45,007 nucleotides of DNA from positions 1-45,007 of the IMG/VR virus record IMGVR_UViG_3300021090_000046; one strand, given 5' to 3'. This DNA comes from a virus. The notes below the pieces were generated by a model. That model ran no database searches. It was not told where the DNA came from and worked only from the letters and a program-made list of their open reading frames with translations. Shown here in pieces: positions 23,181 to 39,728 of this stretch (position 1 is its first letter; every line of letters starts with the position of its first letter). The translations under genes were made by a program, and so were the position numbers.

Positions 23181-23624
23181 TCATAGCCTTTCTTTCTCTT
23201 TTAGTACCACTATTATTCGATTTACGACTGGAATTCCTCTTAATACGATTCTTGAAACATCCATTTCCCGTTCATCTACAATAACAAACTTCGAGCTATG
23301 GATTATTTCCTCCCTTTCGTCCGTATGCATGACCTTTACTGTACAATCCCCATTATCTAACATACCTCCTGTTTCCCAAGCGCGGTTTTCCATTTTCCCC
23401 CACGTAACGTGCCCGGACATTGTAGCACCACTATATGTAGGTATCCAATATTCACCAGAACAAATTATACAGAAAGAATCTGTCGAAGTATTAGTAATTG
23501 GGTCTAGATTGCAAATAGGACAGGAAGTAATGGAATCCACTACATAGAAAGTGACTGGTCTTCCGTCCATGCCTATCATTTCTTCAATTAGCTCTCTTGT
23601 ATTGTCTGGGAATGGTGGCAACAT
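23181..23624 (-). CDS. Zinc-ribbon connector-region protein
   Basis: A 147-residue protein. Cys35-x2-Cys38 and Cys52-x2-Cys55 form a compact zinc ribbon (CPIC...CIIC). The region after it is beta-rich (EYWIPTYSGATMSGHVTWG, CTVKVMHTDEREEIIHSSKFVIVDERE). A small structural protein with such a ribbon between connector genes is plausible as a head-tail joining or stopper protein. It is translationally coupled (TAATG) to the GT4 gene before it. The zinc ribbon is seen directly; the assembly role is inferred from neighbours. Confidence 0.6.
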   Translation of the reverse strand: MLPPFPDNTRELIEEMIGMDGRPVTFYVVDSITSCPICNLDPITNTSTDSFCIICSGEYWIPTYSGATMSGHVTWGKMENRAWETGGMLDNGDCTVKVMHTDEREEIIHSSKFVIVDEREMDVSRIVLRGIPVVNRIIVVLKEKERL

Positions 23625-24814
23625 TACTTACATACCTCTTTAAAAATTTCCGCCCACCTCTTTGCTATTGATTGCCATTGATATTCTGGCTGCAAAAATT
23701 TGGCTAAAGTCTTCTTTGACAACTCTTCTCTTAATTCTTTATCCTGATACAGATGCTCAAGAGAGTCTGCAACTGCTTCTGGAGAAACCAATCTTCCAAC
23801 TGTTTGAGAATGGTCAAAAGTAAAGTCCATAGATGTTTTTATAATCTCACCACAATCTTCAAACAACTCTCTACATGCACTATGGTCTGGAACAATTTGA
23901 GGTGCTCCTGTAATTCCATGTTCTGTACTGATAAGTCCCCACCCCTCTCCCATTCCAGTATTGATACCAACATCGCAGGCATTGTAAATCATATTGAGTT
24001 TCTCTTCTGAAACCCTCTGAATTCCCTGTACAAGACTGGTTAGAAGTAGTCTGTCATCTATTCCATATCTCACAGATATGTATGGAATGTCGATTGCAGC
24101 ATCTCTTGCTCCACAATGCATATATAATTTAACTGTCTTTGGCTTGTTTTTGGCAAATAAAGCAAATCCTGCCATAGTAGTATCGAGTCTTTTTCTGGGC
24201 TGGTTTCTGTTGGCATTGAGAACAAAAAATAAATCTTCCGGCTTTCCCATCTTATAGGCAGCCTCTCCCAAAAGTGCTATTTTAGCCTGTGCTCTAGTTT
24301 CATAAGCCTTATAATAGGTTGAAAAATTCGTACCGTGAGGCATAATTTCTATGTCTCTATCGGGCAGGCACTCTCTTGCCACCTCTTTTCCAAACTTTGT
24401 ATAAGTAAATATCTTTGTTACAATATCAAAATCTTTGTACCACGACTTGTTATGAAATCTTGAATCTACAGGGAAATAGACCACTATTTTTGGGAGGTCA
24501 TTTTTTACATTTTTCTTGATGGCATCAAGGTAATAGCTTATTACCCATGCATCATTTATAAAGAATACCATATCAAATTTTGTGGAATTCAACATGTTGC
24601 AAAGCCTATCAATTCCGTAAACGTTTCCCTGTGCAGTAGATGCGGGATATACTGGAAATCCTAAATTGTGAGGGTCTCCTTTATAGTTTACTCCCAACCC
24701 TGTTATGTCAAACTCGTCTAAATTTGGTATTGTTATGTTATGTAGTACCGTTGAAAATCCAGTAGGAACCACTAAATCTCCTACTACTAAAATCCTTAAC
24801 TTCCTGTTCTCCAT
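23624..24814 (-). CDS. GT4-family (GT-B fold) glycosyltransferase
   Basis: A 396-residue enzyme. Recognisable GT4 features: an N-terminal ILVVGDLVVPTGFSTVLHNI with the Gly-rich acceptor-side loop, MPHGTN near 158, the nucleotide-sugar domain opening FFVLNANRNQPRKRLD near 196-210, and the donor-binding GINTGMGEGWGLISTEHG (about 280-298) with the EX7E-like acidic pair, followed by PQIVPDHSACRELF. It would transfer a sugar from a nucleotide donor to an unknown acceptor. It is embedded, with 1-nt overlaps on both sides, among head-tail connector genes, so it is made with virion proteins and probably decorates the particle. Confidence 0.85.
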   Translation of the reverse strand: MENRKLRILVVGDLVVPTGFSTVLHNITIPNLDEFDITGLGVNYKGDPHNLGFPVYPASTAQGNVYGIDRLCNMLNSTKFDMVFFINDAWVISYYLDAIKKNVKNDLPKIVVYFPVDSRFHNKSWYKDFDIVTKIFTYTKFGKEVARECLPDRDIEIMPHGTNFSTYYKAYETRAQAKIALLGEAAYKMGKPEDLFFVLNANRNQPRKRLDTTMAGFALFAKNKPKTVKLYMHCGARDAAIDIPYISVRYGIDDRLLLTSLVQGIQRVSEEKLNMIYNACDVGINTGMGEGWGLISTEHGITGAPQIVPDHSACRELFEDCGEIIKTSMDFTFDHSQTVGRLVSPEAVADSLEHLYQDKELREELSKKTLAKFLQPEYQWQSIAKRWAEIFKEVCK

Positions 24815-25880: not shown

Positions 25881-27653
25881 CTATTTTTTATTTCCCTTAA
25901 AGGAAATACTCGATTCCGATTTACCGGATAGTGTTACAATTTGTTGAACTTTACCCCTCAAAAATACATAAAAAATCATAGTTCCTTTTAGAAAGACTTT
26001 GGAGGCATTTAGAAGAGTTTTTCCTCCCAATCTAACTATATCTGAAATACCCAAAGAGTTCGATATTGAACGAATAAATGTACCAATTCTTGAAACCGTA
26101 TCTGTTATATTTACTATGGTTTCTATAAATACTATTATTCCTGTAAAGATTCCAAGACTGTCTGAAATTTCTATTAAATCTGAAATCTGTTTTAGTAGTG
26201 CTCTGGAAGAAGTATTTATATCAGAAATTCCAATAGTCTCAAAAAACTCTTTTCTAAGACCTCTAGCTGTCAGAACTTCATCTTGAGGTGTTTCAGTTGT
26301 CTGTATATTTCTAAAAAAATTACCTATTCTAGCTACAGTATCCAATATTCCTACCGCATCGAGTATAGTTACAAATACAATCCCAGACAATAAAGATGCA
26401 GAAACGGTATCTGAAATACCCAATGAATTTGCCACACTCTTATAAATTTGTCTCGCTGTATTTACAGAATCTGTAGCCCCCAACGTTGAGGAGATGCTTC
26501 TAGTAGCTGTCAAAATTCTAGAATCTATATCTGAGATGGTTTCACTATCTTGCACAGCTCTCGAAAAATAAACATTTTTTGTGCTATTATCAGTAATTCC
26601 AGATAAGTCTGCCAGATTTCTAACAAAAGATAAATTTCTGGAACTTACATCAGAAATGTCCTCATTATCGGTTACACCTCTAAAAAAAGAAATGGCTTTT
26701 GTAGCAATATCCGTTATTCCCAATGAGTCCTGTATAGATTTTATAATATTTCTTGATGTAGAAAGAGAATCTGTAATTCCTAGAGAATCTGTTATTATAG
26801 CAAATAACTCACTACCTCCTCCCTGCTTTATATAAGAAACCAGGTCTGTAATTCCTAGGGAATCTGCAACCAGTTTTACTATGCTTCTAATATTGCTTGC
26901 AACATCTGTAATTCCAACACCGTCTGCCAAAATCTTTACAAGTGCTCTTAGATTAGAAATGTTGTCTGTTATTACCACCGAATTTGTCAGGGTTTTAGAT
27001 AAATTTCTAAGCTTGGAAACACTGTCTGTTATTCCCAAATTATCTGAAAAAGCTTTGAAAATTCCCTTCGAGTTTGATACACTGTCGGAAATTGCCTCTG
27101 TAGTGGTTATTGCAGCGGATAGTGCCAAGGAATATGTGATTGTTAGTCTCGCACATAAAGTAGTGGAACCATCATATGAAGTCACAGAAGTGTCTCTGGT
27201 CGCTATTGCGCTGTGTGTAGTCATTGCAAAGCCCATCACGCCGTTACTATATGGTCCATAAGACGCATATAATTCACTAACTACTGATGAAAGGTCAGCA
27301 GTATTTACATCTCCGGTTCCAGCATTTGCATTTAACCAGTTTACAAATGCTGTGGTTCTAGCCCTGCTGCTTATATCATTAGACCCAGTAGTAAATTGTG
27401 CTGGACTTGCTATATCAAGACCAAAAATATCTACATCTGGTTCGTCCAAAGTGCTGCTTGTAAATCTAATAGTTAGAAAAGAACTTACTATTGTAGCACC
27501 GGCTGGAATATTTACAGCAGTAAATCTCCATGCGTTCCATACTCCAGCAGTGTCACAATTTGCTAAAGGATTGGCAGTTATGCTAACCGTTGTTCCTACC
27601 TGACTTGCGTCATCGGCAGAGGCTTGAACGGCTCTTGGACCAAATGTAGGCAT
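25881..27653 (-). CDS. DNRLRE-like head protein with eighteen 20-residue repeats
   Basis: A 590-residue protein. Residues 1-178 look like a jelly-roll of DNRLRE type (VNIPAGATIVSSFLTIRF, ATRDTSVTSYDGSTTLCARLTITYS). From 181 to 540 there are 18 repeats with a nearly exact 20-residue pitch: the Asp of an [IL]-[ST]-D-like triplet falls at 190, 210, 230, 250, 270, then after a GGGSE insert at 295-415 in steps of 20, and after a 3-residue insert at 438-538. A Lys or Arg follows ten residues after most of these Asp. The C-terminus (residues 545-590) is hydrophobic then basic. It may be a head fibre or a long decoration appendage. The start has TAGGAG 6 nt upstream. Confidence 0.75.
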   Translation of the reverse strand: MPTFGPRAVQASADDASQVGTTVSITANPLANCDTAGVWNAWRFTAVNIPAGATIVSSFLTIRFTSSTLDEPDVDIFGLDIASPAQFTTGSNDISSRARTTAFVNWLNANAGTGDVNTADLSSVVSELYASYGPYSNGVMGFAMTTHSAIATRDTSVTSYDGSTTLCARLTITYSLALSAAITTTEAISDSVSNSKGIFKAFSDNLGITDSVSKLRNLSKTLTNSVVITDNISNLRALVKILADGVGITDVASNIRSIVKLVADSLGITDLVSYIKQGGGSELFAIITDSLGITDSLSTSRNIIKSIQDSLGITDIATKAISFFRGVTDNEDISDVSSRNLSFVRNLADLSGITDNSTKNVYFSRAVQDSETISDIDSRILTATRSISSTLGATDSVNTARQIYKSVANSLGISDTVSASLLSGIVFVTILDAVGILDTVARIGNFFRNIQTTETPQDEVLTARGLRKEFFETIGISDINTSSRALLKQISDLIEISDSLGIFTGIIVFIETIVNITDTVSRIGTFIRSISNSLGISDIVRLGGKTLLNASKVFLKGTMIFYVFLRGKVQQIVTLSGKSESSISFKGNKK

Positions 27654-33104: not shown

Positions 33105-34652
33105 TTAATTCCATAGTGCCTTCATTAATTTAATCTTAGGTGCTAGAAATGAAAACTCCCTCGTCATGTGGAAAGCACCTACTCCACAAAGTAGTGACGA
33201 AGTAAAGTGGTCTTCTCCTCTCTTGCCACCTCTTTCGGTTATGGTTTTATAGGTTATATCCCCATTAGGACTTTTTGAGTATGTCATTCTTTCCAGTTCT
33301 GTTACCAAATCCATATCTGTAGAAGAGAATATCAATCTATGGTTATTAGCAAACTCCTGCAATACAGATACAAAAAATGGCTTTGCTTTAACCTTGTTCT
33401 CTGTTCCATCCGAGTTAGTTCCCAACACTACAGAGCTGGAAAATTCTACAGGGTAAAGACGTTCCTTGTAATTCTTGTGCTTATAGTCAGGACTTTCATG
33501 TAATGTTTGTATTACTGAAACTCCAGAATTTCCTCTATCTACACCCAAAATGAGAGGAGCATATTTTGTGTCAAGAAAGTCTATTATCTTTTCCTGTATT
33601 GGATAACTAACTTTGGTAAGCTTAATCCTTCCATGAATTCTGAGTCTTTCTTTTCCATCCAGATACATAATTGAAATAGCTGTAGGCTCAGTATATCCTA
33701 AATCTATTCCAATAACTATCCCATAGTTTTGCTCTACAATTTTGGGAAAGCTTTCCAATTTCATTAGCATCTCGCCAAAGTCCTCGGATTTGAGACCGTC
33801 GATATTAAGTTTAAATACAGGATAAGATTCTATTCTTAACAAGCTTCTATCAAACAAGGAGTATACTGGTTTGCCATGCTGACCTAGTACATAATGAATG
33901 AAATCTTCAGTTTCTTCTCCACCATATTGATTTTTAGCTGCCTCAATATCATCTTTTGTAATTCTAGGATTGTCAAAAGCAGAGACTCTGTGTTTGGTAT
34001 AAGAATCATTTTCCTGGTCTACAGTATAAAGAACATTATTTTCTCTCATTCCAGTAGGAACTCCAGAAACTATTTCCCTGTGTCCAGGAGTCCACACATT
34101 TAAAGATGGCTGCATCTCATTGAAAGCATTATATGGAAAGTATCCTCCCTCATCTACCTCTATCCAGGGAGTATGTAAAGCAATTAAATTTGAACCAGTA
34201 CCAGATTGTCCGGCAATACGGCATAAAAGTACCGCACCATTCTTTAAAGTTATTTTAAATTCTGAACTGTTTACTCCAGATTTGGTATCAATAAAATTCT
34301 TCAGAAATGAGTTTGTCTTTAATATTCTTACCAGATTAGTAAATACAGGTTCAAGATGTACTTTGCTAGGTACGGTAAATAAAAGATAATCCTCTGGAAA
34401 AAGATTATAGATAAGTATCCACAAAAGAAGAGAATATTGACTTACTGTCTTACCTGTAGCTCTTGCCGTGCAGACCGAGACCCTGGGATTAAAGTCCGCC
34501 ATGACTTCTCTCTGATACCACGAAAACTCAAACAGCTCCTCATATTCAGGGTCGGAGTCTATGTTGTATATAAATTCGGGGGAAAGAATAGGGTTCTTCA
34601 ATATCTCATAAAGAACCAGGTCTTCCTGACTTACCTTGTATTGAATTGCCAC
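33105..34652 (-). CDS. terL: Large terminase subunit (packaging ATPase and nuclease)
   Basis: A 515-residue motor. Walker A ARATGKT is at 63-69. Walker B WIEVDE, with Asp167 and catalytic Glu168, follows, and motif III-like SGVPTG is near 196. The RNase H-fold nuclease shows GIDLGYTEP with Asp317, ILGVDRGNSG with Asp372, and GEDHFTSSLL near the end with the third acidic residue. It pumps DNA into the prohead and cuts the concatemer. The start is GTG at 34652, with AAGGAG 6 nt upstream. The C-terminus ends in APKIKLMKALWN and may contact the portal. Confidence 0.93.
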   Translation of the reverse strand: MAIQYKVSQEDLVLYEILKNPILSPEFIYNIDSDPEYEELFEFSWYQREVMADFNPRVSVCTARATGKTVSQYSLLLWILIYNLFPEDYLLFTVPSKVHLEPVFTNLVRILKTNSFLKNFIDTKSGVNSSEFKITLKNGAVLLCRIAGQSGTGSNLIALHTPWIEVDEGGYFPYNAFNEMQPSLNVWTPGHREIVSGVPTGMRENNVLYTVDQENDSYTKHRVSAFDNPRITKDDIEAAKNQYGGEETEDFIHYVLGQHGKPVYSLFDRSLLRIESYPVFKLNIDGLKSEDFGEMLMKLESFPKIVEQNYGIVIGIDLGYTEPTAISIMYLDGKERLRIHGRIKLTKVSYPIQEKIIDFLDTKYAPLILGVDRGNSGVSVIQTLHESPDYKHKNYKERLYPVEFSSSVVLGTNSDGTENKVKAKPFFVSVLQEFANNHRLIFSSTDMDLVTELERMTYSKSPNGDITYKTITERGGKRGEDHFTSSLLCGVGAFHMTREFSFLAPKIKLMKALWN

Positions 34653-34662
34653 GACCCGCTCC

Positions 34663-35523
34663 TTAGTGTAATTTATTTCTCCAATAATTTATGGTAGAAA
34701 GTTCTTCTTCTCTGGAATCTATTTTTATTGGAGGATTTGCAGTTTCTTTTCCAACTTCTCCACCCCATTTGGAAACATAGTATGATTTATTGTTATCAAA
34801 AGCGGCATTTGTGCTTCCACCACTTCCCTGATTAATGGTTCTACTCCAGAAGTGAAAGAACTTGGCATTTGTTAAAGAGCAGGATTTTATATTTGCTCTG
34901 ACTATCCTATTGGCATAGTCATTATCTATAAAGTAAGCCGGATAAAAAGCTACATCCGTGTATCCTACGCCGTCAAAAACTCCTCTTTTGTAAAGACATA
35001 GATTTTGTATATCTAAAAGTTGCATATGATTTATATCAAGAATGTTTGAATAATCTTTAAATAATTCCCAGGGGCTTGAACCGAAATCGGAAAAAATGTA
35101 TTTATCGCTTTTGAAAAACTTTCTTGCATCTGGAAATTGACTAGCAAAGGCTCTTACATCCACCTGACTTGCACTTATTACCTGATAAGTGCTTTCATCT
35201 GCCAACTTTATTAACGAATCTATTGCGTAGGGATAAGCTACTATGTCATTACCGGCTATAATTAGATTATCATAATTATTTTCCAACCACGCATAATCAT
35301 AAACATCATTAATGGAGCACGGAAATCCCCAATTTTGTGTGTGAACTTTAAATTTTATATCTGGTTCAGTAGCCAGCCAATTAAGGGTTTCTGAATCTCC
35401 TGGTTTCCCAACTACTATGAAAAAGTCTATAGGACTTTCTGTAGTCTTTCTTATTGAATCTACAGTTAATTTTGTAAATGGAGTATTTCCGAAACTTACG
35501 ATTCCTACTAATGTTTTATCCAT
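34663..35523 (-). CDS. GT2-type (GT-A fold) glycosyltransferase
   Basis: A 286-residue enzyme. It starts TLVGIVSFGNTPFTKLTVDSI (nucleotide-binding strand-helix), has NWGFPCSIND near 64-73 and a DxD-like GNDIVAYPYAID near 91-102, and later FIDNDYANRI and KFFHFWSRT, in the order seen in GT2 proteins. It would use a nucleotide sugar with a metal ion. The acceptor is unknown. It overlaps the upstream glycosyltransferase by 8 nt. It sits between the terminase and further sugar genes, so it is part of a decoration cassette. Confidence 0.75.
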   Translation of the reverse strand: MDKTLVGIVSFGNTPFTKLTVDSIRKTTESPIDFFIVVGKPGDSETLNWLATEPDIKFKVHTQNWGFPCSINDVYDYAWLENNYDNLIIAGNDIVAYPYAIDSLIKLADESTYQVISASQVDVRAFASQFPDARKFFKSDKYIFSDFGSSPWELFKDYSNILDINHMQLLDIQNLCLYKRGVFDGVGYTDVAFYPAYFIDNDYANRIVRANIKSCSLTNAKFFHFWSRTINQGSGGSTNAAFDNNKSYYVSKWGGEVGKETANPPIKIDSREEELSTINYWRNKLH

Positions 35524-36391
35524 CTATTATTTCTCTGCACTTTCTAAACACATTGTCATCGTTTTCGTATGAAGACCAGTATTTTTTTATCAGAACAGGA
35601 CTATTAACTACAAAAGATGCTCCTGTAGCTTTATAGGTAAAAGAACCTAATTTTTTATTTCCATTCATACAATTAACAACATTTTGCATATGAACATGAG
35701 GACCGGAATTTCTTCCTATTAGGCATGAACAGTACTCACTAAGGTACGATAATTCTGTCAAATCAAATCCATCACTACTGCAAATTATTTCTCCAGCAGA
35801 CAATATGTTTTCAAAATGAGCTAGTCCATTATTTTGTACAGTTATAAATAATTTATTAGGATACGCTCCAGATAGTCTAAAGATAATAGGATTGAAATTA
35901 AAGTTTTCAGCTTGCATAGATTGACATAATCCATTATCTATCAGTATTTTATCTTCTGGATGAGCTTCCATAAATATTCTTACATTATTTATATCAGGAA
36001 AATAAGAGTAGTCTATTTGAGGCAAATAGTCTATAGGATTTCCGGTTAGTTTTCCTATGCCCAATTTCCTCATTAAATCGTTGTGCATTTTATAAAACTG
36101 TTCCAAAGTTGTACCTATGCCAGGAAGTACATAACTTCCGTCTCTACCTATCCATGTATTAATATAAAGGATTTTATTCTCAATCCATATATCTCTTTCT
36201 GGTTTCATGACATCTGTAACCGGAGTGAATTGGAGTCCTTGAATATCCTTTAAAATTTTTGGGTTTTTTCCGTGTGCATAATAATAAGAGTCAGCATCTA
36301 TTTTTTTCATCCACTCTTTAACAAATTCTCTAGATTCATATACATCGCCTGCCCCAAAATGGCAATAAAATATTACAGCATCATAGCGCAT
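35516..36391 (-). CDS. GT-B fold glycosyltransferase-like protein
   Basis: A 291-residue protein. FYCHFGAGDVYESREFVKEWM resembles the opening of heptosyltransferase/GT9-like proteins. Near residue 230 IGRNSGPHVHMQNV parallels the donor-site pattern G.dSGp.Hla of that group. The central region has Rossmann-like strands (ILYINTWIG, KILIDNGLCQSM, KLFITVQNNG). The catalytic assignment is tentative. It overlaps both sugar-gene neighbours by 8-11 nt, which points to co-translation. The acceptor may be the product of one of the other transferases or a virion protein. Confidence 0.55.
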   Translation of the reverse strand: MRYDAVIFYCHFGAGDVYESREFVKEWMKKIDADSYYYAHGKNPKILKDIQGLQFTPVTDVMKPERDIWIENKILYINTWIGRDGSYVLPGIGTTLEQFYKMHNDLMRKLGIGKLTGNPIDYLPQIDYSYFPDINNVRIFMEAHPEDKILIDNGLCQSMQAENFNFNPIIFRLSGAYPNKLFITVQNNGLAHFENILSAGEIICSSDGFDLTELSYLSEYCSCLIGRNSGPHVHMQNVVNCMNGNKKLGSFTYKATGASFVVNSPVLIKKYWSSYENDDNVFRKCREIIDG

Positions 36392-37103
36392 GTAATATAC
36401 TTTCTATAAAATCTATAGATGGTTTGTTTAGTAAATTTATCAAAGGCTGTTTGGTTGCACCTCCACCAGCAATATGCAACATTTTTATTCTTTTACCTCT
36501 AAGCTCTAAATGGTCCCCAACAGGATTAATTTCCTTCCATAAATCCCAGTAAGTACGTATTCCCTCAATCAAAGATGTTCCCCAATGAACAGGTTTGTCC
36601 TTTGGGTCTAAAATTTTGGTGTTGTATTTTCCAGAATGAAATACCAAGTTGAGGACTCCCTGTTCCTGATAGGGAATTTCTCCCCCCTTTTCCAAACAAG
36701 TTTTCATCCAGTCCTCCATAAAAATTTCTGAGGATACTGAATGAATTCCTGCATTTACATACATAAATTCATCTATTCCAGGTAGAGTAAGACCTGCGTG
36801 AGTGGCACATCTACCGCTATCGCTATTATTTCTTCCCGCTCTTGCGTCTGTAGAATCATCAAATAACTCGTCTATGTTGTCCAAAACTAAAACATCATTG
36901 TCTATATGGGTTACTGTAGAGTATTTTTTAAACAAAGGTAGTTCAATAGTTGGATAAGCGTATGCCCCAAGGTATACTTTCATAAACTCTTCTTTGTTTG
37001 AAACCTCAACGGTAACGTCTGGATGAAAATGCAAAAGAGTTTTAAGCATCCGATTGTGCTCATCAATGTGGTCTATATAGAAGGTTGAGATGCACTTAGA
37101 CAC
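36381..37103 (-). CDS. GT8-like glycosyltransferase
   Basis: A 240-residue enzyme starting at a GTG (37103). VTHIDNDVLVLDNIDELFD (Asp68 and Asp70 form the DxD metal site) is characteristic of GT8 and similar galactosyl- or glucosyl-transferases. YVNAGIHSVSS and EQGVLNLVF follow in the right order, and KMLHIAGGG near 208-216 matches the C-terminal HxxG metal ligand. It would be a retaining sugar transferase using a UDP-sugar. It overlaps the FkbM methyltransferase gene by 31 nt. Confidence 0.8.
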   Translation of the reverse strand: MSKCISTFYIDHIDEHNRMLKTLLHFHPDVTVEVSNKEEFMKVYLGAYAYPTIELPLFKKYSTVTHIDNDVLVLDNIDELFDDSTDARAGRNNSDSGRCATHAGLTLPGIDEFMYVNAGIHSVSSEIFMEDWMKTCLEKGGEIPYQEQGVLNLVFHSGKYNTKILDPKDKPVHWGTSLIEGIRTYWDLWKEINPVGDHLELRGKRIKMLHIAGGGATKQPLINLLNKPSIDFIESILHAL

Positions 37104-37732
37104 TTTTCCATTCCTTCTTTATCTACATAAATATCATTCAGATGTATTCGTTTAACGAAAGTATAGCCACGCTCTTCAAACCATGTACGTTGTTCTGATT
37201 CTTTATGATAATTTTCAATTACTACCACCACTGGTTTCCATTTGTTTATATCTAAAGTGGATAGAACTTTCATTTCAGAGCCTTCTACATCTATAGTAAG
37301 AAAATCTATATGGTTTTGTTTTATTTCATTTTCCATTAACCACTCAAAAGTACGAACATTTACCTGAATTCTTGTTTCAAATTTGTTGTTCATAAAGGGT
37401 TTGTCTATTAAACCAGATTCAGAAGCCTCCCCCCATGTTCCCGCATAATCGTTTGGAATTTTCCAAATAAAAAAATCTACCCCATCTTCATTTTTATCGC
37501 TAACAGCGTACTCTATTACATGCTTTCTATACTGTTTTAGTTTTGGAATACAATGTGGATTAGGTTCTATACAATAAGTATCCCACCCACTCCGTTCAAA
37601 AATCCAACTATTGTTAATCCACAAAGGGTCATGTGCTCCAATGTCCACACATACCCCTTTAAAATCTTTTGGGAACAGGTCTTTTACAAACTCAGCATGA
37701 CCTTCTGTTTCATATCCTAAATCCCGTATCAT
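37073..37732 (-). CDS. FkbM-family methyltransferase
   Basis: A 219-residue enzyme from the ATG at 37732, with AAGGA 8 nt upstream, just after the previous stop. An upstream TTG in frame lacks support. GVCVDIGAHDPLWINNSWIFE is motif I of the family, SGWDTYCIEPNP is the ribose-binding acidic strand, and IDFLTIDVEGSEMKVL is the conserved catalytic-side motif. FkbM enzymes O-methylate sugars or hydroxyl groups. Next to three glycosyltransferases it probably methylates the transferred glycan, which could cap it or hide it from host sensing. Confidence 0.88.
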   Translation of the reverse strand: MIRDLGYETEGHAEFVKDLFPKDFKGVCVDIGAHDPLWINNSWIFERSGWDTYCIEPNPHCIPKLKQYRKHVIEYAVSDKNEDGVDFFIWKIPNDYAGTWGEASESGLIDKPFMNNKFETRIQVNVRTFEWLMENEIKQNHIDFLTIDVEGSEMKVLSTLDINKWKPVVVVIENYHKESEQRTWFEERGYTFVKRIHLNDIYVDKEGMEKCLSASQPSI

Positions 37733-37733
37733 A

Positions 37734-37976
37734 TTATCTATCCTTATCGTAGGATTTACTTGTTGGGGAGCCGTCCTCAAATCCAAATATTTTATCTAAT
37801 GCTCTAATAAGTTTATTGCGTCTAGCATTTAAAGCGTGTGTATCCTGCGAAGCCTGAAATCTCTGCTCTTTTGTCAGTCTCTCATCAAATATTTTTTCTT
37901 GCGCCATAAAACATTTCATGTCCGTTGTAATAAGCTCGTCTATTAGTATTCCAGGTGTTTTAGTCTCAATGCTCAT
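37734..37976 (-). CDS. Small conserved-looking phage protein upstream of packaging genes
   Basis: An 80-residue helical protein. GILIDELITTDMKCFMAQE, and then ALNARRNKLIRALDKIFG, follow a pattern I have seen in small phage proteins near terminase genes (E.I....k......e followed by LN.rRn.LI.AiD), but no function is known to me. The ribosome region is odd: GGATTAGGATTAGGA makes three tandem purine-rich sites just before the ATG. Its stop is 1 nt before the FkbM gene. Confidence 0.6.
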   Translation of the reverse strand: MSIETKTPGILIDELITTDMKCFMAQEKIFDERLTKEQRFQASQDTHALNARRNKLIRALDKIFGFEDGSPTSKSYDKDR

Positions 37977-37996: not shown

Positions 37997-38746
37997 CTAT
38001 AGCATACTTTCAGGTGTAATTTCTTTCTTATTAGTGCCTCTTTTTTCCGAGAGTTCCCTAGTTCCTATGATTATCTTCTCCCCACATTTGGAGCCATCAT
38101 CGAGAATTCTTTCACATATAAGAGCTATTTTGTTTCTTTCATTTTCTGGATATAATGTCCAGACAGTTGCTAAAAGCATATTACATTTAGGACAAAAGAT
38201 ATAAGACATTTTGCTTGCATAAAACTTTTTTGCCTTTTCCTTTAGCCCATCTATATAAGTCAGAACAGATACGTCCTGGTCAGATTTTCTAATCTTTCTT
38301 GTTATGTTAAGGTCATTCTGCAACTTGCTTATATCATCTCTAAGGTCTGACATGGCTCTCTGTAGCTTTTCATTAGCCATAACGTTAGCTTCTGAAATTC
38401 CTGCTGAACGAACCTTGAATTGAAATTGCTCGTAATCTTCCAGAGTAATCTGTGCTTGAATAAGTGCTCTTAGAATATCCTTATCATTTATTTTTAAATC
38501 CGAAAGGTCATAGTCATTGTCAAACTCCTGCATCTTATTTGCAATTCTCTTCTCAAACTCCTCGGAAATATCTATACCTAAAGCCTTCTGAGCCATGACT
38601 TTATCGAACTCTTCGCTCGAAAGTCCTCTATACTGCTTAAGCCCTTTCAGTCTAGCCAGCTTACCCTTCTTGGCTTTGACCTGCTTATCCTCGGAATTCT
38701 CGTAGGAAAGACCATCATCTAGCTCTATATCATCGAATTCTTCCAT
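37997..38746 (-). CDS. Putative small terminase-like protein with zinc ribbon
   Basis: A 249-residue protein from the ATG at 38746 (AAGGAAGG upstream). It is acidic at the start, then helical: KARLKGLKQYRGLSSEEFDKVM and NDKDILRALIQAQITLEDYEQFQ. Four cysteines form a ribbon: CPKC near 185-188, then Cys211 and Cys221 (ICERILDDGSKCGEKI). It is the first gene after a terminator and promoter candidate and lies two genes before the sugar cassette and terminase. This position and the DNA-binding-like zinc site suggest small-terminase or late-regulator function. No family match is certain. Confidence 0.45.
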   Translation of the reverse strand: MEEFDDIELDDGLSYENSEDKQVKAKKGKLARLKGLKQYRGLSSEEFDKVMAQKALGIDISEEFEKRIANKMQEFDNDYDLSDLKINDKDILRALIQAQITLEDYEQFQFKVRSAGISEANVMANEKLQRAMSDLRDDISKLQNDLNITRKIRKSDQDVSVLTYIDGLKEKAKKFYASKMSYIFCPKCNMLLATVWTLYPENERNKIALICERILDDGSKCGEKIIIGTRELSEKRGTNKKEITPESML

Positions 38747-38779
38747 ATTTTCAAAACCTTCCTTCAATTTTATATACTA

Positions 38780-38828: not shown

Positions 38829-38853
38829 AAAAGCCGAGACTTTCGTCTCGGCT
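38829..38853 (-). terminator. Rho-independent terminator after the holin candidate
   Basis: On the minus strand AGCCGAGAC pairs perfectly with GTCTCGGCT (38853-38832) around a GAAA tetraloop, then TTTGTCATTT follows. It is 20 nt after the stop of the two-TM protein and separates the replication and late transcription units. Confidence 0.85.
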
Positions 38854-39131: not shown

Positions 39132-39728
39132 TTATTCAATTACATATACTTGTTTTATCTGTTCAAACATCCCTTTTACTTTATACTCCAGGGATTCCAA
39201 ATCTTGGTCGTTATTAATTATAAAATTATAAAAACTAGATTCTTGATAGGTAAGAAATTCATCTTTGGCATTCGGTAAACTGGTTTCAGATACATCATTC
39301 ATTAGCTCAAGTTCATCAATAGATGAACTTCGTCCTATAAGTCTAATTGTAACCACAGTCATGAGAGGATTTTTAGCTATCTCTGCCGCTTCGTTTACAA
39401 ATCTCCAATCGTCTACTATTACAAAATTATATGGAAGCATTTGCATTTTATCCAGACGATTGAACATGTGTGTTACCCAAATAGATTCTTTATACTCTCT
39501 TCCAATAAAGCCCAACTGTTGCAATAACCTTCTTCCCTTCGCATCCTTTCTATCATCCCAACCGAAGAAGGCTTTTGCTATATACTTAATAGGTTGAGCG
39601 AAGGAATACTTTGTAGAAGAAAACTCGTTCAAAGGTTCCAATTCCTTGCATAATATATTTGATACTGTAGTTTTTCCAGTTCCTGCAAGACCTGATATTA
39701 AAATCACTACGGTTTTCCTAGTTCTCAT
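39132..39728 (-). CDS. Deoxynucleoside monophosphate kinase
   Basis: A 198-residue P-loop kinase. Walker A GLAGTGKTT is at 13-21. GRRLLQQLGFIGREY near 66-80 fits the monophosphate-binding region, and VIVDDWRFVNEAAEI contains the Walker-B-like VDDWRF typical of phage T4-gp1-like dNMP kinases. It would phosphorylate dNMPs from degraded host DNA. The start has GGAG 7 nt upstream and overlaps the previous gene by 11 nt. Confidence 0.8.
   Translation of the reverse strand: MRTRKTVVILISGLAGTGKTTVSNILCKELEPLNEFSSTKYSFAQPIKYIAKAFFGWDDRKDAKGRRLLQQLGFIGREYKESIWVTHMFNRLDKMQMLPYNFVIVDDWRFVNEAAEIAKNPLMTVVTIRLIGRSSSIDELELMNDVSETSLPNAKDEFLTYQESSFYNFIINNDQDLESLEYKVKGMFEQIKQVYVIE

Follow-up and report, generated by a model that had tools for sequence, protein, structure and literature searches.

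A recombining glycan-gene island beside the large terminase gene of a phage lineage and its possible role in virion glycosylation

The window, that is, the whole stretch of DNA analysed here, is a 45,007-bp IMG/VR viral contig (IMGVR_UViG_3300021090_000046) with nearly all of its genes on the minus strand. We searched its 45,007 bp for an end repeat and found none, and the window is a fragment. In the minus-strand direction, genes for DnaB and exonuclease come first, followed by a DNMK-type dNMP kinase (39132-39728; phrog_139, E 8.5e-28) just upstream of the c9 region, then by c9, a small ORF, a cassette of four glycan-related ORFs and the gene for the large terminase, TerL (33105-34652, minus strand), an assignment made earlier and borne out by phrog_2 (E 2.1e-15). 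Beyond TerL come a putative portal gene, a putative major capsid protein (MCP) gene, a core GT4 transferase gene, and genes for the tape measure, the tail and lysis. Window positions 25881-27653, downstream of the capsid gene, encode a 590-aa protein with 25% Ser+Thr that consists mostly of repeated 'SLGITDSVS'-like units; judged from this sequence, it is a candidate glycan acceptor.

The cassette occupies positions 34663-37732 on the minus strand and reads in the order FkbM-type SAM methyltransferase (37073-37732; 219 aa from an ATG, with a TTG start at 37786 also open), GT8-like transferase (36381-37103; 240 aa, GTG start), GT9-fold (GT-B) transferase (35516-36391; 291 aa) and GT2-like (GT-A) transferase (34663-35523; 286 aa). 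Successive ORFs overlap by 31, 11 and 8 nt, in agreement with the four-gene arrangement and the 8-31 nt given in the preliminary description, and TerL starts 10 nt past the GT2-like stop. Chance ORFs were rejected: when the mononucleotides of the region were shuffled 200 times, open runs reached 144 codons at most, compared with 295 observed. Homologues of all four proteins are present in related contigs, and the GT2-like gene adjoins TerL in most relatives.

On the upstream side lies c9 (37997-38767, minus strand), a conserved, putative small terminase candidate with a C-terminal zinc-ribbon-like motif of four cysteines (C184/C187/C210/C220), all invariant in the 13 sequences aligned. It matched no PHROG family, gave sub-threshold Pfam matches only, and had no match in a search of a phage collection. 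Between c9 and the FkbM gene we found c14 (37734-37976, minus strand), an 80-aa ORF omitted from the preliminary description and a candidate helper, which matches PF14063 (DUF4254) at E 4e-5, below the cut-off of that family. It accompanies the island described below, being present in 10 of the clustered sources, and a c14-like gene with 34% identity adjoins FkbM in a 735-kb phage. The cassette does lie between the putative small terminase and TerL, as first described, with c14 as one more small gene on its upstream side. Upstream of c9, a terminator-like hairpin (38832-38853, minus strand) combines a 9-bp stem, including 6 G-C pairs, with a T tail. A similar hairpin occupies the same place in three other loci (L004, L028 and L039) and was not found in 9 others; it possibly separates the replication transcription unit from the late one.

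We then assigned each enzyme by family profile, motif and predicted fold. The methyltransferase call is upheld by PF05050 (E 1.5e-20; 74.5 bits against a cut-off of 22.7), which places the protein in the FkbM family. Its homologues occur in locus L016 and in LR756501, and a scan of viral contigs for FkbM gave no matches. The GT8-like call survives in a weaker form: D68 and D70 of its DxD motif are invariant in four sequences, and its profile weakly matches the structures of WbbM and Skp1 galactosyltransferase and, still more weakly, glycogenin, but PF01501 (E 0.0036, 17.4 bits) stays below its cut-off of 24.3. No Pfam or PHROG match was obtained for the GT9-like protein, the GT9 family of Pfam included. 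Its AlphaFold model, built with 13 sequences (pLDDT 90), has as its best PDB match the GT9 enzyme 3tov (Z 15.6), followed by WaaF (14.3), WaaC (14.0) and TibC (13.6-13.7), the last being a heptosyltransferase that glycosylates a protein. The modelled GT-B fold thus agrees with the earlier GT9/heptosyltransferase-like label, and the protein is GT9-like by predicted fold, not a profile-level family member. The GT2-like protein also has no Pfam match; PHROG names it 'galactosyl transferase' (E 4.5e-11), its AlphaFold model (pLDDT 86) adopts a GT-A fold, as its label requires, and its motif residues are invariant across 15 sequences. This model reaches Z of about 19.5 with chondroitin polymerase and with polypeptide GalNAc-transferases (GalNAc-T2), a match that speaks for the predicted fold and not for the acceptor. 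A PDB sequence search with the FkbM, GT9-like and GT2-like profiles yielded no real relative. The 'three different transferase folds' claimed earlier are two folds in three families, GT-A for the GT2-like and GT8-like proteins and GT-B for the GT9-like one. Taken together, the folds and motifs of the cassette transferases are predicted to be those of active transferases; donor and acceptor cannot be read from fold.

The core GT4 transferase (23624-24814, minus strand; PHROG E 3.5e-36), already recognized as a fourth enzyme, is encoded within the operon's head-tail region, where its position is invariant. It was found as a single copy in all eight records searched. Its profile matches PDB 3oy2, the chlorovirus protein B736L, over the whole length (E 3.4e-39), and E290 and E298 of the EX7E motif are invariant in nine sequences. 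B736L binds GDP-mannose best, and its own acceptor is not known (PMC9614988). We regard the core GT4 as a candidate priming enzyme.

To compare gene content across the lineage, 30 loci were collected from TerL homologues in viral contigs, further ones were added by a GT2-like search, and all ORFs were clustered. This clustering revealed that c9 and TerL are the borders of an insertion site. The c9-TerL gap was filled in 12 of the 12 related contigs that carry both borders in this order, with a length of 1.5-8.0 kb (median 4.4 kb), a mean of 6.6 genes and 38 protein families, mostly glycan genes. Of the other junctions compared from TerL onward, ten had no inserted family and c2-c3 had a single one. 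The MCP-c8 junction is a lesser hotspot with 12 inserted families, and at the two junctions that immediately precede c9 there were 6 and 8, mainly small genes. One locus (L035) is an exception in order, its island lying upstream of c9. Isolated acquisition by one phage was rejected: the cassette is a single variant of a glycan island that recombines and extends across the lineage, with counterparts in related contigs, a point that the preliminary description had missed.

The annotated families of these islands are nearly all transferases, sugar-nucleotide enzymes or methyltransferases, with a few non-glycan genes. At least one transferase is encoded in nearly every island, a c7-c5 pair recurs among them, and 11 of the 12 encode a predicted methyltransferase, recognized as PF05050, PF13489 or PF08484 type or as a cluster homologue, with a weak match in two of these; the twelfth (L021) encodes a protein that appears methyltransferase-like to us and has no Pfam match. 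Islands of relatives also contain a GDP-mannose 4,6-dehydratase (E 3e-127) and a C-methyltransferase, and that of L031 contains NeuB (E 1.6e-53), a cytidylyltransferase, two PF01973-like proteins, a sulfotransferase and another FkbM. The dehydratase, NeuB and cytidylyltransferase of these relatives would supply sugar donors. In the island of L003 (348-1034), PF14099 (E 1.8e-37) marks a polysaccharide lyase domain next to the C-methyltransferase gene, placing a depolymerase beside glycan-making genes. Within 13 kb of LR756501.1 (310-323 kb; locus L013), the 735-kb uncultured phage, GT9-like, FkbM, C-methyltransferase and c14-like genes occur together and are related to those of the lineage.

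We also compared divergences over small, identical sets of 7-13 loci with permutation p values. Divergence of the portal and MCP tracked that of TerL (rho 0.64-0.79, p <= 0.005), whereas divergence of the GT2-like and GT9-like proteins did not (rho 0.02-0.31, p about 0.1-0.46), and these two were uncorrelated with each other (rho 0.0). The departure of the shared island genes from TerL, which portal and capsid follow, indicates that the island genes recombine.

Several other features were seen in the relatives. Upstream of c9, and in that genome only, L021 (2544-5614) encodes a protein with an SPPY motif of the DNA-methylase kind, a PP-loop ATPase-like protein with a weak tRNA_Me_trans HUP match, and a third protein with no Pfam match; the trio might form a nucleic-acid modification set. 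The capsid gene of L004 (15029-16618) appears in two pieces with other ORFs between them, and GIY-YIG-like ORFs (c38) recur near structural genes in several relatives, possibly reflecting an intron or homing element. Host assignment by a scan of species genomes with the GT9-like alignment under strict patterns was abandoned, as its only two matches were themselves contigs of this phage group (L051 and L052), one assigned to a Bathyarchaeota MAG and the other to a Brevinema MAG; these placements are probably binning errors and provide no trustworthy host.

Fold, family and context together give good support to the earlier proposal that the cassette, co-directional with the virion genes, carries out stepwise synthesis of a methylated glycan. 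Its direction, its place directly before the TerL, portal and capsid genes, and its position after the terminator-like hairpin suggest that the enzymes are produced late, together with the particle. We asked which molecule receives the glycan. As in the Corndog/Che8 type, the transferase genes lie within the virion structural operon, the cassette preceding the TerL and portal genes and the core GT4 gene lying among those for head and tail.

One alternative is remodelling of the host envelope (LPS, capsule or teichoic acid) by these enzymes during infection, bringing about superinfection exclusion or serotype change. LPS heptosyltransferases are among the closest structural matches of the GT9-like model, and NKWYS, a putative capsular polysaccharide synthesis family, has a match to one island gene. 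However, the genes for lipid-linked export, namely the initiating phosphoglycosyltransferase, flippase and GtrA (PF02397, PF01943 and PF04138), were absent from all eight records searched, with controls that worked, and no integrase (PF00589) was present in six. The components of gtr-type serotype conversion were accordingly lacking (PF04138 in 0 of 8 records, PF00589 in 0 of 6). A hydropathy check almost never found a membrane-like stretch in island proteins, and late placement would confine their action to a time close to lysis. We consider envelope remodelling unlikely.

It is also rather improbable that the enzymes glycosylate phage DNA bases in a T4-like manner for nuclease evasion, even though the DNMK-type dNMP kinase upstream could serve modified nucleotides and phage glycosyltransferases have been tied to DNA hypermodification (PMC12619734). 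Thymidylate synthase/hydroxymethylase (PF00303), which T4-type DNA glucosylation requires, was absent from six records, and ThyX (PF02511) and C5-cytosine methylase (PF00145) were absent from the records searched; in both cases the records included two that are terminally redundant, and the controls worked. These two relatives have exact terminal repeats of 123 and 127 bp and are probably complete genomes. PF12851 (TET/JBP dioxygenase) had no match, but its control also matched nowhere. Moreover, the island sits in the packaging operon, and those of relatives hold NeuB and sulfotransferase types. That the island is a tolerant insertion site for accessory genes with no common pathway seems more doubtful still: its content is broad, with a few non-glycan genes included, but the annotated families are nearly all glycan or methyl enzymes, the c7-c5 pair recurs and all or nearly all of the 12 islands have a predicted methyltransferase.

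With the tests arguing against DNA and envelope targets, and with the operon position and Corndog fitting, a virion protein is left as the acceptor. This is the best remaining reading, reached by exclusion and analogy, and the absence tests leave room for unfamiliar routes. We put the probability at about 65% that the locus encodes a soluble, late-made glycosylation pathway for virion proteins. In such a pathway, the core GT4 would add the first sugar to a structural protein in the cytoplasm, the GT9-, GT8- and GT2-type enzymes would lengthen the chain by one sugar each time, and FkbM would O-methylate it, probably as a cap. Swaps of island genes between phages would alter the glycan and hence the surface type of the particle, and the altered surface could aid shielding or adhesion. 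For the further proposal of a phage 'glycotype' locus, in which a constant priming transferase is combined with swapped genes for chain extension, sugar nucleotides, methylation and sulfation at one site beside TerL and gives similar particles different glycans, we see about even odds. Bacterial O-antigen loci likewise diversify cell glycans; here the diversification is proposed for phage particles.

Comparable systems have been described. In Corndog, a cluster O mycobacteriophage, gp35-38 comprise an O-methyltransferase and three transferases among structural genes, and a virion-modifying role was proposed for them in 2015 (PMC4351075); the particles of Corndog, Che8 and Myrna are cited as glycosylated in later work (PMC12363180). 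Compared by described gene content, the Corndog set resembles the present cassette in joining an O-methyltransferase and transferases in a structural operon. However, it lies between portal and protease, whereas the present cassette is beside TerL, and it is described as common to cluster O, unlike the swapping island found here. In Caudovirales GX15bay (MK557849), annotated transferases and a methyltransferase also lie shortly upstream of TerL, a distant homologue with 23% identity; this is a single uncultured genome whose transferase sequences differ from ours, and its authors class the transferases as carbohydrate metabolism genes (PMC6460857). Near full-length GT4 homologues occur in Synechococcus phage S-CBS4 (35% identity) and Tetrasphaera phage TJE1 (29-30% identity), where their neighbours include a transferase, a methyltransferase or both, close to head or packaging genes, although position and gene sets differ from those here. 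Comparable sets are thus present in GX15bay, S-CBS4 and TJE1, and together with Corndog these contradict the view of the preliminary description that a methyl-capped, multi-step cassette is unusual in itself.

Beyond phages, the chloroviruses PBCV-1 and NY-2A encode glycosyltransferases and a GDP-mannose dehydratase, and the terminal rhamnose of a capsid glycan is predicted to be methylated (PMC5408694, PMC9614988). Virus-encoded transferases, GDP-mannose dehydratase and predicted methylation are shared with the present lineage, and the core GT4 resembles B736L; unlike the present phage, chloroviruses infect eukaryotes and have multidomain transferases. In Megavirinae, glycan gene sets that serve particle fibrils vary by clade (PMC9614988), resembling the variation among relatives here, but these are eukaryotic giant viruses with larger clusters. 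A narrow literature search for hypervariable glycan loci close to terminase genes found none, a result that counts as weak evidence that no such locus has been described. Sets of transferases and methyltransferases near head or packaging genes were already known, and the new element is the lineage-wide, recombining island with its constant GT4.

In the literature examined, phage virion glycosylation is documented mainly for a few mycobacteriophages. If our proposal is true, bacterial viruses would diversify their surface chemistry systematically, through independent recombination at a fixed site and with NeuB-type, sulfated and C-methylated sugars. A defined gene set with a constant first enzyme would provide a way to ask what purpose particle glycans serve in environments without animal immunity.
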